Assembly (NCBI GenBank): GCA_017937405.1
Contig: JAGBDS010000029.1
Coordinates: 1-49,743, forward strand
Source: Oscillibacter sp.
Lineage (GTDB): Bacteria; Bacillota; Clostridia; Oscillospirales; Oscillospiraceae
Direction: 5' to 3'
DNA length: 49,743 bases
This document shows positions 16,017-45,034 of this stretch, in pieces. The stretch's first letter is position 1; every line of letters starts with the position of its first letter. The notes beneath the pieces are model-generated. The model saw only the letters and a program-made list of their open reading frames with translations. It had not been told where the DNA came from and made no database searches. The position numbers and the translations under genes were made by a program.

Positions 16017-16061
16017 CCCTTCCTTGCCGGAAAGCGGCGCACCGCTTTCCCAACCGTTCAA

Positions 16062-16197
16062 GCTTTAGCATCACAAGGCAGTGTAGTTGCGTTAGATGAT
16101 ACCTTCGTGTTCGATATCGCCTGTTCAAACCATCTTGTGATGTCTCCATCACTTCGCGGCAGCAACCCGTATCCTTGTGGTAGCCTTACCTACCGGA
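16062..16197 (-). ncRNA. M-box (ykoK) magnesium riboswitch aptamer
   Basis: Read on the minus strand, the leader shows the M-box signature in order: GTAGGTAAGGCTACCACAAG, GGATACGGGTTGCTGCCG, a stem GTGATGGAGACATCAC, GAACAGGCGATATCGA, AGGTATCATCTAACGC and CACTGCCTTGTGATGCTAAAGC in the closing part. These match the conserved core of the family that senses Mg2+ upstream of mgtE and other Mg2+ transporters. High Mg2+ folds the aptamer and favours the downstream terminator. The position, 120 bases before mgtE, fits. Confidence 0.93.
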
Positions 16198-16226
16198 CAT
16201 GTTTAGTTTTTCATATCTTCTTATTT

Positions 16227-17144: not shown

Positions 17145-17155
17145 TGGAGAACAGT

Positions 17156-17236
17156 ATGCCAAAATTTGAAGTTGTTTCTGAATGTCAGACCTCCGGCGAG
17201 CCCCACAAAAGCTGCGCTTTTGCGGGGACCCCATGA
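17156..17236 (+). pseudogene. Ghost 5' end of uvrB (diverged allele fragment)
   Basis: ATG 17156 opens 15 codons reading [15 protein letters not shown], against [15 protein letters not shown] at the true uvrB start 226 bases downstream. The first 28 bases differ at one synonymous position. Later the same Ser is TCC here and AGT in uvrB, so the difference looks like allelic divergence of a coding sequence and not random decay. A ribosome binding site (GGAGAA) is also shared. The frame runs into the hairpin block and stops at 17234. A 26-residue peptide could still be made. Confidence 0.8.
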
Positions 17237-17340
17237 TTGAACTCAAATGGGCAGGCAAAGCCCGCCCATTTCAAGGTTTTGGCTGCGCCAAAACGCTTGA
17301 CGCCGCTTCCGCGGCGGCGGACCTTTGGTCCGCTGGCTGG
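17201..17340 (-). mobile_element. Four-hairpin repeat element, copy A (before uvrB)
   Basis: Element sense is the minus strand. Hairpins, in plus coordinates: H4 17201-17227 (12-bp arm, loop of three, one G-U in the minus-strand RNA), H3 17245-17271 (arm AAATGGGC), H2 17276-17294 (arm GTTTTGG) and H1 17317-17333 (GCGGACC/GGTCCGC). The minus strand aligns with copy B at 43930-44054 along its length (shared CAAGCGTTTTG, AAAACCTTGAA, CTGCC/TTGCCTGCCCA and GGGGTCCCCGC). It has no ORF and no recombinase and is flanked by the ghost and true uvrB starts. Confidence 0.7.
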
Positions 17341-17381
17341 CCGCCGGATGAAATTTGCAGGAGAGTGCGGAGAATTGAGTT

Positions 17382-19352
17382 ATGCCGAAATTTGAAGTTG
17401 TTTCTGAATACCAGCCTAGTGGCGACCAGCCCGAGGCCATTGCCGCCCTGGCGGAGGGCATCGAGAACGGGCTGAAGGAGCAGGTGCTGCTGGGCGTCAC
17501 CGGCTCCGGTAAGACTTTCACCATGGCTAAGGTCATTGAGCAGGTCCAGCGCCCCACCCTGGTGCTGGCTCACAACAAGACCCTGGCGGCCCAGCTCTGC
17601 GCGGAGTTCAAGGAGTTTTTCCCCAACAACGCCGTGGAATATTTCGTCTCCTACTACGACTACTACCAGCCCGAGGCCTATATCCCCCATACCGATACCT
17701 ATATCGCCAAGGACGCCTCCACCAACGAGGAGATCGACCGCCTGCGGCTCTCCGCCACCTGCGCCCTGCTGGAGCGGCGGGACGTGATCGTGGTGTCCTC
17801 CGTCTCCTGTATCTACGGCCTGGGCGAGCCGGATGACTTCGCCAAGCTGGTGGTCTCCCTCCGGGTGGGTGCCGAGTGGGAGAGGGACGAGCTGCTGCGC
17901 CGCCTGGTGGAGATCCGCTACGAGAGGAACGACATCGCCTTTGAGCGGAATATGTTCCGGGTCCGGGGCGACACGGTGGAGATTTACCCCGCCTATTACA
18001 AGGACCACGCCATCCGGGTGGAGTTTTTTGGCGATGAGATCGACCGTATTTCCGACTTCAATCCTATCACCGGTTCCGTGAACCGGGTGCTGAATCACAT
18101 TGCCATCTACCCTGCCAGCCATTACGTCACCACCAAGGACAAGATGGACAAAGCCATCTCCGAGATTCGGCGGGAAATGGAGGAGCAGGTCAAGGTCTTT
18201 ACGGACAATGACCAGCTGGTGGAGGCCCAGCGCATCCGCCAGCGCACCGAATACGACATGGAGATGATGGCGGAGCTGGGCTATTGCTCCGGCATCGAGA
18301 ATTACTCCCGCATTATCTCCGACCGCCCCGCAGGGTCGGCTCCCATGACCCTGCTGGACTTTTTCCCCGACGATTTCCTGCTGTTTGTGGACGAGAGCCA
18401 TGTCACGCTGCCCCAGGTCCGGGCCATGTACAACGGCGACCACGCCCGGAAGGACAGCTTAGTCAAGTACGGCTTCCGCCTGCCCTGTGCCTACGACAAC
18501 CGCCCCCTGAAATTCGAGGAATTCGAGGAGCGCATCGGTCAGGCGGTGTTCGTCTCCGCCACCCCCGGCCCCTACGAGCGGGAGCGGGCGGACCAGGTGG
18601 TGGAGCAGGTCATCCGTCCCACCGGCCTGCTGGACCCCAGAGTGGAGGTCCGGCCCGTCACGGGACAAATTGACGACCTGATGGACGAAATTCGTGCCCG
18701 CGCTGCCAAAAACGAACGGGTGCTGGTCACCACCCTCACCAAGAAAATGGCGGAGGACCTGACGGAGTTCTTCAAAAACGCGGGCATTCGGGTGCGGTAT
18801 ATGCACTCCGATGTCCAGACCATCGAGCGGATGGAGATCATCCGGGACTTGCGTTTGGGCGAGTTCGACGTGCTGGTGGGCATCAATCTCCTGCGGGAGG
18901 GCCTGGACCTGCCGGAGGTGTCCCTTGTCGCCATTCTGGATGCCGACAAGGAGGGCTTCCTCCGCTCCGAGACCTCTCTCATTCAGACCATCGGCCGCGC
19001 CGCCCGAAACGCCGAGGGCCTCGTTATCATGTACGCCGACGAGATTACGCCCTCCATGCGGGCGGCCATCGACGAGACGGCCCGCCGCCGCTGCCTTCAG
19101 GACAACTTCAATAAAGAGCACGGCATCGTGCCCAAGACCATCATCAAGGGCGTCCGGGAGGTGCTGGAGATCTCCAAGACGGCGGAGGGCGATACCAGCG
19201 GCAAGGGCAAGAAGCGCAAGCTCTCGGACCAGGAGCGCGCCGCCGAGATCGCCAAACTGGAAAAGGAAATGCGGGAGGCCAGCAAGATGCTGGAATTCGA
19301 ATACGCGGCAGTGCTGCGTGACCGCATCATCGAATTGCGAGGAGAGAAATAA
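17382..19352 (+). CDS. uvrB: Excinuclease ABC subunit B
   Basis: 656 residues, normal length. Walker [14 protein letters not shown] (about 40-52), the beta-hairpin region [21 protein letters not shown] that locks one DNA strand, the Walker B-like [14 protein letters not shown], helicase motifs [56 protein letters not shown], and a C-terminal UVR domain (about 615-650) that contacts UvrC. In nucleotide-excision repair UvrB takes over damaged DNA from UvrA and recruits UvrC. Here it heads a tight gene string that ends with uvrA. Translation begins at ATG 17382 after GGAGAAT; a ghost of this start lies upstream. Confidence 0.98.
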
Positions 19353-40730: not shown

Positions 40731-40817
40731 GGTGCGCGAGGCGGGACTTGAACCCGCACGTCCGTAATGGACACTAGAACCTGAATCTAGCGAGTCTGCC
40801 AATTCCACCACTCGCGC
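40730..40817 (-). tRNA. tRNA-Leu (anticodon CAG), second copy
   Basis: 88 bases including an encoded CCA. Acceptor stem GCGCGAG/CTCGCGC, anticodon arm CTAGA-TTCAGGT-TCTAG with anticodon CAG, a long variable arm (TGTCCATTACGGACG) typical of Leu tRNAs, and T loop GGTTCAAGTCC. The sequence is identical to the upstream copy at 40878-40965. Confidence 0.96.
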
Positions 40818-40877
40818 GTACAATATGTAATTAGACCCCGAAGGGACCCACCGGAGACCGGAGCCTCCGGTGGGATT

Positions 40878-40965
40878 TGGTGCGCGAGGCGGGACTTGAA
40901 CCCGCACGTCCGTAATGGACACTAGAACCTGAATCTAGCGAGTCTGCCAATTCCACCACTCGCGC
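40878..40965 (-). tRNA. tRNA-Leu (anticodon CAG), first copy
   Basis: Identical to the copy at 40730-40817 over all 88 bases, CCA encoded. The two are separated by 60 bases that contain a CCCACCGGAG...CTCCGGTGGG hairpin. Confidence 0.96.
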
Positions 40966-40988
40966 ATATGGCAGGGACAAAAGGGTAA

Positions 40989-41074
40989 TGGTGCGGCTGA
41001 CGGGACTTGAACCCACACGTCGATACGACACCAGCACCTCAAGCTGGCCTGTCTACCAGTTCCAGCACAGCCGC
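40989..41074 (-). tRNA. tRNA-Leu (anticodon GAG)
   Basis: 86 bases with encoded CCA. Acceptor stem GCGGCTG/CAGCCGC, anticodon arm CCAGC-TTGAGGT-GCTGG with anticodon GAG, long variable arm, T loop GGTTCAAGTCC. First gene of a three-tRNA leucine array read on the minus strand. Confidence 0.96.
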
Positions 41075-43581: not shown

Positions 43582-43917
43582 ATGAATATCCAGATCTTCG
43601 GCTCCTCCAAGTCCTTCGACACGAAGAAGGCGGAACGCTGGTTCAAGGAGCGCCGCATCAAGTACCAGTATATCGACGTTCCCTCAAAGGGATTATCCCC
43701 CCGGGAGTACCAGTCCGTCAAGCAGAAAGTTGGCTTCGAGGCCCTGGTGAACACGAAATGCCGGGCTTACGAGGACCTGTTCATGGCCTATATCACCCCT
43801 GACGCCCAGGAGGTAAAGCTGCTGGAGCACCCGGAGCTGTTCCAGACACCCATCGTCCGCAACGGCAAAGAGGCCACCGTTGGGTATTGTCCCGATATCT
43901 GGGCAAAGTGGGAGTAA
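43582..43917 (+). CDS. ArsC/Spx-family protein lacking the active-site cysteine
   Basis: 111 residues, the usual length of the ArsC-like thioredoxin-fold family. IQIFGSSKSFDTKKAERWFK occupies the position of the redox Cys; family members normally show a Cys just before the DTKKAE segment, here Ser. The remainder (RRIKYQYIDVPSKGLSPREY, LFQTPIVRNGKEATVGYCPD) is intact. Without that Cys it cannot act as a classical arsenate reductase, so a binding or regulatory role like Spx is possible. The start follows CAAGGAG. The last 28 codons are present a second time 231 bases downstream. Confidence 0.85.
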   Translation: MNIQIFGSSKSFDTKKAERWFKERRIKYQYIDVPSKGLSPREYQSVKQKVGFEALVNTKCRAYEDLFMAYITPDAQEVKLLEHPELFQTPIVRNGKEATVGYCPDIWAKWE

Positions 43918-43929
43918 GCGAAGGGTGCT

Positions 43930-44054
43930 CCCGCGCCAAATGGCGCGTCCAAGCGTTTTGCTGTCAGGCAAAACCTTGAACTGGGAGGGCTCTGCCTGCC
44001 CAGTTGAGTCCAATGCGGGGTCCCCGCTGCGCCTGCGAAGCAGGCGTGGTGGGG
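43930..44054 (+). mobile_element. Four-hairpin repeat element, copy B (after the arsC-like gene)
   Basis: Element sense is the plus strand. H1 43932-43947 (CGCGCCA/TGGCGCG), H2 43955-43974 (GTTTTGC/GCAAAAC), H3 43979-44005 (AACTGGG/CCCAGTT), H4 44022-44054 (15-bp stem, GAA loop, three or more G-U pairs). Against copy A the third pair of H3 changes from A-T to C-G and the last pair of H2 from G-C to C-G, with pairing kept. No ORF and no transposase. Real and ghost arsC ends flank it. Confidence 0.7.
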
Positions 44055-44061
44055 TGCGCCC

Positions 44062-44148
44062 CCGGAGCTGTTCCAGACGCCCATCGTCCGCAACGGCAAA
44101 GAAGCGACTGTGGGTTACTGCCCCGATATCTGGGCAAAATGGGAGTAA
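44062..44148 (+). pseudogene. Ghost 3' end of the arsC-like gene (allelic copy)
   Basis: 87 bases, 29 codons with stop, encoding PELFQTPIVRNGKEATVGYC and then PDIWAKWE, the same peptide as the end of the intact gene at 43831-43917. The two differ at nine bases. All nine are third codon positions and all are synonymous (for example ACA/ACG, GCC/GCG, GTT/GTG, TAT/TAC). That pattern needs selection on protein sequence during divergence, so the copy stems from an orthologous allele. It has no start codon of its own. Confidence 0.88.
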
Positions 44149-44173: not shown

Positions 44174-45034
44174 GTGAAGCAATTTTCTCCTCCGAAAAAC
44201 CCGTTTTTCCGCGCCGTCTATCTGTTGGCCCGGCGCTTTCTGCGGCATAACGTGGGGGCACAGAGCGCGGCGCTGGCCTTTTACCTGCTGTTCATGCTGT
44301 TCCCGTTCCTGATCTTTATCAGCGCCCTGCTGGGCCTGCTGCACCTGGATGTGGCGGGTATTCTGGCGGCTCTGGCGGAGTTCCTGCCAGCCCAGGTGGT
44401 GGATGTGGTGGAGGTTTACCTGACCTATGTGGGCAGCAGCCCCAGCCCCCAGCTGCTGGTGTTCGGCCTGGTGTTCTCCATTTATTTTCCCATGCGGGCC
44501 ACCAACGCCCTCATGCGCTCCGTGCGGACGGCCTATCACCTGGGGCCGGCCCACGGCGTGATCCAGGTGCTCAAGACGCTGCTGTACACGGTGCTGCTTA
44601 TCGCGGCCATCGCCCTGACCCTGGTACTGATGAGCGTTAGTGACCGCATCCTGGCCTACTGCGTGGCGAACTTCGGCCTTCCAGCCTTCGTCGCGGAGCT
44701 GTGGGCGCGGCTGCGCTTTCCCGTGGCGGCGGTGGTGGGGTACTTCGCCCTGTTCTTCCTGTACGCCCTGGCCCAGGACAGCCGCCAGCCCTGGCGGAAT
44801 ATCTGGCCGGGGACGCTGGCGGCCCTGGCGGGCTGGCTGTGCCTGAGCTGGCTCTACGCCTGGTATGTGGAGCATATCGCCCATTACTCCCTGCTGTACG
44901 GCTCCATCGGAACGGTCATCGTCCTGCTGATCTGGCTGAATATGAGCGCCATGGTCCTCATCATGGGCGCGGAGCTGAACGGTATGCTGATGAGCCTGCG
45001 AAAGGACCGGTTGGAGAAGGCAGAAGCGCCTTGA
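44174..45034 (+). CDS. YihY/BrkB family membrane protein
   Basis: 286 residues from GTG 44174 after AGGAGG; the upstream in-frame extension runs through the repeat element and is not coding. Six membrane segments. Family marks: HNVGAQSAALAFYLLFMLFP, YFPMRATNALMRSVRTAYHL, GYFALFFLYALAQ, SLLYGSIGTVIVLLIWLNMSAMVLIMGAELN. The family was once called ribonuclease BN in error; its true role (perhaps lipid or solute transport) is unknown. A terminator follows ten bases after the stop. Confidence 0.92.
   Translation: MKQFSPPKNPFFRAVYLLARRFLRHNVGAQSAALAFYLLFMLFPFLIFISALLGLLHLDVAGILAALAEFLPAQVVDVVEVYLTYVGSSPSPQLLVFGLVFSIYFPMRATNALMRSVRTAYHLGPAHGVIQVLKTLLYTVLLIAAIALTLVLMSVSDRILAYCVANFGLPAFVAELWARLRFPVAAVVGYFALFFLYALAQDSRQPWRNIWPGTLAALAGWLCLSWLYAWYVEHIAHYSLLYGSIGTVIVLLIWLNMSAMVLIMGAELNGMLMSLRKDRLEKAEAP

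Follow-up and report, generated by a model that had tools for sequence, protein, structure and literature searches.

In the window, by which we mean the whole 49,743-nt stretch of Oscillibacter sp. DNA analysed here (one contig of a fragmented assembly of 112 contigs, 89% complete), the end of an arsC-like gene occurs twice, on either side of a block of four hairpins, and that block belongs to a structured RNA element that measures about 130 nt and occurs at least 14 times in the window's genome. Just 5' of the hairpins lies a short segment, the guide, which is the reverse complement of the target gene across the insertion point, from about −5 to +7 of that point. We favour, tentatively and with slightly less than even confidence, the reading that this is a guide-directed mobile non-coding RNA element, whose unit would include a working gene end and whose insertion would leave the recipient's own end behind as a duplicate, the ghost. 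A preliminary description of the window had pointed to the last 29 arsC codons standing twice around a four-hairpin block, an arrangement borne out by the direct repeat and the covarying hairpins reported below; the dispersed family, its lineages bound to target genes and the target-complementary guide go beyond that description.

The arsC-like locus is arranged as follows:

43582–43917, + strand: arsC-like gene of 111 amino acids (open reading frame), whose last approximately 30 codons are assigned to the element unit
43821–43832, + strand: guide-matched target around the insertion junction between 43826 and 43827, complementary at 11 of 12 positions (92%) to 43923–43934, with nine exact positions at 43824–43832
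43827–43917, + strand: copy 1, the end in use by the arsC-like gene, a direct repeat identical to copy 2 at 81 of 91 positions
43918–43922, + strand: short spacer directly past the stop codon, from our reading of the sequence
43923–43931, + strand: guide of 9 nt, the reverse complement of 43824–43832, complementary across the repeat start
43932–43947, + strand: hairpin 1, helix 1 of the family structure
43950–43978, + strand: hairpin 2, helix 2 of the family structure, with the conserved CAAG.GTTTTGC..GCAAAACCTTG
43979–44005, + strand: hairpin 3, helix 3 of the family structure
44022–44054, + strand: hairpin 4, helix 4 of the family structure, with the family-typical GTGGGG at its end
44055–44057, + strand: 3' end of the element, 3 nt, variable on comparison of the copies
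44058–44148, + strand: the ghost (copy 2), which is most likely the native end of arsC, joined to native downstream DNA
44174–45034, + strand: brkB-like gene downstream of the ghost (Pfam PF03631, E 6.3e-48), its GTG start being our choice

The product of the arsC-like gene matches the Pfam ArsC family (PF03960) with 30.7 bits, the cut-off being 24. The two copies of its end form a gapless direct repeat of 91 nt (43827–43917 and 44058–44148, at a spacing of 231), and all nine differences within the 29 codons at 43831–43917 are synonymous, as had been stated from the letters of the window; a tenth, at the left edge of the repeat, falls in a codon that changes, so that nine synonymous differences and one nonsynonymous are found in total.

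Of the further copies in the same genome, the first seven that we read are each flanked on both sides by a copy of a gene end (7/7). Copies were evaluated in two sets, which have some target genes in common, in different species. Set 1 comprised 111 matches in ten genomes of the same genus, which left 101 upon the dropping of five duplicates and five copies with short flanks; set 2 comprised 137 loci with 151 copies, 130 of them evaluable, from which we subtracted 45 already in set 1 and 10 duplicates to obtain 75 new copies. Direct repeats with a score of at least 20 flank 85 of the 101 set 1 copies, as against 5 of 400 unrelated flank pairs taken as a control, and 62 of the 75 set 2 copies (control, 4/400), the latter figure being used in place of the 112 of 130 in the uncorrected set 2, which is not independent of set 1. 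The same arrangement thus recurs at most other evaluated copies, including those of the single-contig genome G085 (L046, L092, L096, L103, L106, and L108), so that it is neither a product of chance nor peculiar to the window's assembly, and an assembly chimera was rejected as a general cause.

Throughout the family the order is gene body (P), copy 1 (X to Y), linker, guide, hairpins 1–4, a GTGGGG-like motif with about 1–4 further nt, copy 2 (X to Y) and native flank, the guide being complementary across the boundary between P and X. The duplicated flank is mostly a gene end, the repeat measures about 30–112 nt, and the insertion point accordingly lies inside the gene, about 30–112 nt from its end; the right copy mostly starts where the hairpin block ends, and the left copy mostly stops within some 75 nt before the core. 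A subset of 77 copies, in which the repeat scored at least 28 and stopped 4 nt or more short of the core, contained a forward gene end within the repeat in 58 instances and fell into 37 target clusters, five of which are junctions within tandem arrays rather than gene targets; some thirty different gene-end targets are therefore in use in ten genomes. Eight gene-end targets were tested (lepA, glmS, prfB, infB, era, leuS, hfq, and murE), to which the window adds arsC and uvrB. Tandem arrays of gene end plus element, with a spacing of about 205–220 bp and up to four units, were seen at L076, L052, L103, L106, and G209:C1:1916204-1916977.

Under strict filters (E ≤ 1e-4) the element matched 73 of the 250 genomes searched from the bacterial family, belonging to 40 of 106 genera. 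The hairpin 2 pattern was found in 102 stretches of a one-genome-per-species collection covering 84,980 species, and among the 80 matches listed the titles named Oscillospiraceae or genera such as Oscillibacter, Dysosmobacter, Flavonifractor, Pseudoflavonifractor, Intestinimonas, and Galloscillospira, along with unnamed Clostridia, Clostridiales or simply bacterium, and one Campylobacter. That last copy (L253) stands in a metagenome-assembled contig titled Campylobacter sp., which is perhaps mis-binned. One contig among the IMG/VR viral contigs matched the exact pattern; this sole match (L286), viral by database label only, has a gene-end repeat of 68/74. The phage and plasmid records gave no element match at E ≤ 1e-5.

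The structure alignment was built from 62 of 64 candidate cores, two having been left out by hand, and predicts 34 pairs in four helices, 23 of which show pair-keeping changes on both sides. In this alignment 97.2% of the cells are paired, as against 84.1% in shuffles and 33–53% in slid versions. On the guide-bearing strand, two of the positions have G-U as their most frequent pair, which points to an RNA of that sense. No Rfam 15 family reached its gathering threshold on the element, nor was there any intron match in the window at that threshold; six element loci compared with Rfam at E ≤ 5 likewise gave no intron match and, a riboswitch outside the element aside, sub-threshold matches only. 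A known RNA family was rejected, since the only matches were of the Bacteroides-1, isrP, and rpsL_pseudo type, at E 0.1 or more, and were taken as chance.

The guide was examined at 75 of the 77 copies of set 1, where a match with a score of at least 8 was found in 46 of 75 (control, 134/1433) and one spanning the junction in 43 of 75 (control, 32/1433); the corresponding figures for set 2 were 47 of 58 (control, 73/1095) and 36 of 58 (control, 25/1095). When 46 copies with 24 targets were aligned on the insertion point, the match ranged from 0.59 to 0.96 at positions −5 to +7 and was about 0.3 in the flanks, these copies having been selected for a score of at least 8, a selection that favours matches and not their position; 43 of these 46 span the junction. 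The three bases before the junction prefer G, G/A, and A/G. Two variants of one target, CAGTCC and CAATCC, each occur with the matching guide. The leuS lineage (L029 and L035) shows no clear guide, and its stop codon leaves little space before hairpin 1, which may itself serve instead.

The preliminary description had judged the arsC pattern unlike that of a decaying tandem duplicate, and the family agrees: 48 diverged sense copies show 162 synonymous differences over 751 sites and 70 nonsynonymous ones over 2453 sites (a ratio of about 0.13), in a codon analysis that skipped 19 of the 77 copies because their repeat holds no forward gene end, counted the uvrB copies L033 and L101 as sense ends, and accepted a stop codon as far as 15 nt beyond the repeat, which truncates the lower tail; some of its reading frames may be incorrect. 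At one glmS copy all 15 differences are synonymous. A decaying tandem duplicate was rejected on account of this coding-like divergence, and the view that each copy evolved as a functional gene end is supported. In 46 of 58 copies, several with identical repeats included, no more than 6 nt separate the end of the repeat from the stop codon; this fits a gene end travelling with its own linker, since a fresh target duplication would run past the stop. A few copies do run past it, for example L095 and L056, and these may be closer to first insertions.

The sites are polymorphic. The comparison of empty arsC sites that the preliminary description had proposed found the site empty in G061 and G057: in G057 a single gene end runs into the sequence that follows the ghost in the window, and a join of gene body, ghost and downstream DNA aligns over all 391 query bases in both genomes. 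Gene body, ghost and flank are likewise uninterrupted at glmS (G084 and G057) and lepA (G057); repeated matches of the gene end indicate that lepA is filled in G083 and G058 and, in tandem, in G074. Because the ghost is joined to native downstream DNA in the relatives, the element lies upstream of the native end and copy 1 belongs to the element unit; at arsC, as far as these alignments allow, the native end is most likely the one preserved as the ghost. The earlier proposal that the ghost was the imported copy therefore probably does not hold there, its downstream flank being native in G057 and G061. Of the broader proposal, that a copy from another lineage came in with the element, two parts are supported: both copies look like functional gene ends, and a structured element does arrive together with such an end. 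At the ten differing arsC sites, G061 is ghost-like at six and copy-1-like at three, and G057 at four and five. At glmS, the sites shared with relatives favour a native ghost. In the glmS copy of G000, the closeness of copy 1 is 0.87 to copy 1 of another element-bearing species and 0.77 to its own ghost, and this greater closeness to a relative's copy 1 argues for import.

As to descent, the nearest core in another genome has the same target in 41 of 59 instances (label shuffles: mean 2.0, maximum 7), and in 48 of 59 each gene end has its closest counterpart in the other end of the same genome. The lineages are thus bound to their targets, yet the ends within a genome are mostly closest to each other, so that the insertions seem more recent than the lineages. 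Repeated re-entry of the elements into their sites would account for this, as would homogenisation of the repeats. At L062 and L061 one old insertion is common to two species, copy 1 grouping with copy 1 and ghost with ghost, which indicates that vertical descent also occurs.

The window contains a second element, at uvrB, which duplicates the start of the gene and lies antisense to it (17155–17425), giving uvrB a new start context:

17381–17425, − strand: copy 1, the working uvrB start, with its ATG at 17382 (Pfam UvrB domains)
17335–17345, − strand: guide, with a score of 8.5 over 11 positions spanning the junction (locus L003)
17201–17317, − strand: hairpin block, by family match
17155–17199, − strand: ghost start adjoining native upstream DNA

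Since this element is antisense to its gene, a guide aimed at mRNA was rejected, and DNA is the likely target. Elsewhere in the window, the Rfam scan found an M-box riboswitch at 16042–16204 (− strand) and three tRNA matches at 40733–41074 (− strand).

The anatomy, the family, the fold, the guide complementarity and the polymorphic sites are shown by the data above. The favoured reading would proceed as follows. A filled allele would be transcribed so that gene end, guide and hairpins stood on one RNA, the element RNA perhaps extending from the gene end, or from the guide, to GTGGGGNNN. The guide of this transcript would pair with an empty allele, the paired RNA would be copied into DNA at the junction, the 3' end of the new copy would be joined to the native gene end, and the upstream end would be resolved through homology to the gene body; the donor's gene end would thereby replace that of the recipient, whose own end would become the ghost, and further rounds at an allele already filled would produce tandem arrays. 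Of these inferred parts, insertion directed by the guide is the best supported, the copying of an RNA comes next, and the origin of copy 1 as the donor's end comes last. A bolder version, which we regard as doubtful, is a protein-less RNA-guided homing in which a 12-nt guide would find a conserved gene end and write the element with a rescue copy into empty alleles by means of host enzymes, in the manner of a natural prime-editing or gene-drive cassette.

As for the enzymes, the roughly 130 nt between the repeats leaves no room for an integrase or recombinase, in agreement with the earlier suggestion of a structured element installed together with a gene end and without a recombinase of its own. 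RVT_1 occurs in 82 of the 250 family genomes. Among 21 element-rich genomes, TnpB (PF07282) was found in 4, IscB (PF14239) in 1, IS110 (PF01548) in 11, one of them below the cut-off, and the Y1 transposase in 15, being not found in G083, G073, G095, G159, G173, and G202. None of these five enzyme families was found in every element-rich genome examined, so that the enzymes would be host functions, or undescribed, or absent with spread by recombination alone; probably they are host-encoded or undescribed.

Several observations weigh against the favoured reading. No guide match with a score of at least 8 was found in 29 of 75 copies of set 1 and 11 of 58 of set 2, and 16 of the 101 set 1 copies had no repeat with a score of at least 20. 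Guides matched their own species' target better in 77 of 130 comparisons, and another species' homologous target better in 25, which speaks for the reading, but the test is biased by the guides having been picked for matching their own target; at target positions that differ, both guides track the target at 21 and the guide is unchanged at 31. A filled allele retains the intact guide target at copy 1. The donor origin of copy 1 is clear for glmS only, arsC and murE giving no decision, and at uvrB the two nearest empty relatives are nearer copy 1 than the ghost (G084 by 5 to 3, G061 by 6 to 2). The excess of wobble-type guide mismatches (25 of 87, versus 13 of the opposite kind) is only suggestive. 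RVT_1 was not found at E ≤ 1e-5 in G000, G042, G083, and G095, with 7–14 reported copies each, although a reverse transcriptase missed by the model is possible. Both the RNA intermediate and the action of the guide are, finally, putative.

One alternative is a passive spread by ordinary homologous recombination, according to which each target-bound lineage arose once by duplication and has since moved as an allele from strain to strain and from species to species, crossovers in either repeat producing ghosts with synonymous differences and the guide being a relic or serving another purpose. We consider this unlikely but worth serious weight: the finding of none of the five enzyme families in every element-rich genome examined, the old insertion common to two species, and the binding of lineages to targets all accord with it, but it leaves unexplained a junction-centred guide in more than half of the copies in two data sets, the some thirty gene-end targets in ten genomes, and the repeats younger than their lineages in 48 of 59. 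It seems improbable that an intron-like RNA is involved, such that the first gene end, guide and hairpins would leave the mRNA, joining the gene body to the ghost, and the RNA would reverse-splice into DNA, with the guide playing the part of the internal guide of group I introns or the exon-binding site of group II introns. A continuous, junction-centred reverse complement of the joined flanks is the layout of such introns, and the ghost does remain coding-like; the element, however, matched no group I or II family, the excised unit would have no constant first nucleotides, and the uvrB unit is antisense to its gene.

Rather less probable still is that gene conversion keeps the two repeats alike within old and immobile insertions; an identity mostly bounded by the coding region would fit, but a divergence that is synonymous only, as in the 15/15 differences at glmS, and empty sites among close relatives would not. 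The least probable of these alternatives, which we disfavour, is a DNA transposon, or a miniature inverted-repeat transposable element (MITE), of a transposase making long variable target duplications, like IS1634 or IS1549. Long variable repeats are indeed reported for those two, to judge by titles in the reference list of PMC2266710, and the direct repeats here are long and variable; yet an excerpt of that same source (PMC2266710) gives a duplication of about 5 bp for families including IS1634. Nor were terminal inverted repeats seen at the window copy, by the repeat search, or in the aligned ends, no dedicated search having been made; many repeats, identical ones too, stop at the stop codon rather than at random, and neither the guide nor the RNA covariation would be expected.

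The guide-directed reading matters either way: if the guide directs insertion, it would represent a new programmable insertion chemistry in common gut bacteria, and if it does not, dozens of target-bound lineages that keep a guide for their own site need explaining. Among the titles listed by the literature searches none describes such an element, although one may nevertheless have been published.

Mobile group I and II introns have an RNA complementary to the joined flanks and spread site-specifically into empty alleles. The element resembles them in that its guide is complementary to the joined flanks at the junction, a likeness of complementarity only, and differs in lacking an Rfam intron match or an intron-encoded protein, in its size of about 130 nt and in bringing a gene-end copy with it. 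Where integrative elements enter the 3' ends of genes, which serve as integrase attachment sites, the end is restored and its duplicate is left behind as a direct repeat; unlike them, the present element has no integrase, and one family uses its many targets. In diversity-generating retroelements a copy of a gene 3' end stands beside a hairpin, whereas the arsC differences are synonymous and not confined to adenines, and RVT_1 was not found in several element-rich genomes. Repetitive extragenic palindromic (REP) and MITE-type repeats are short, dispersed, non-autonomous, and hairpin-forming; the element, in contrast, is mostly in coding ends, with a guide and a gene-end duplication, and 6 of the 21 genomes gave no Y1 match. 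The guide RNAs of TnpB and IscB have programmable complementarity to a DNA target. The IS110 bridge RNA, according to an excerpt of PMC11208160, is a non-coding RNA with the same capacity. Unlike in these systems, no such protein was found in all 21 element-rich genomes, and the element has long direct repeats. No known class that we considered combines a target-complementary guide, a conserved RNA fold, the restoration of the gene end and the absence of a recombinase; the element suggests an undescribed way for something so small to spread without breaking genes.
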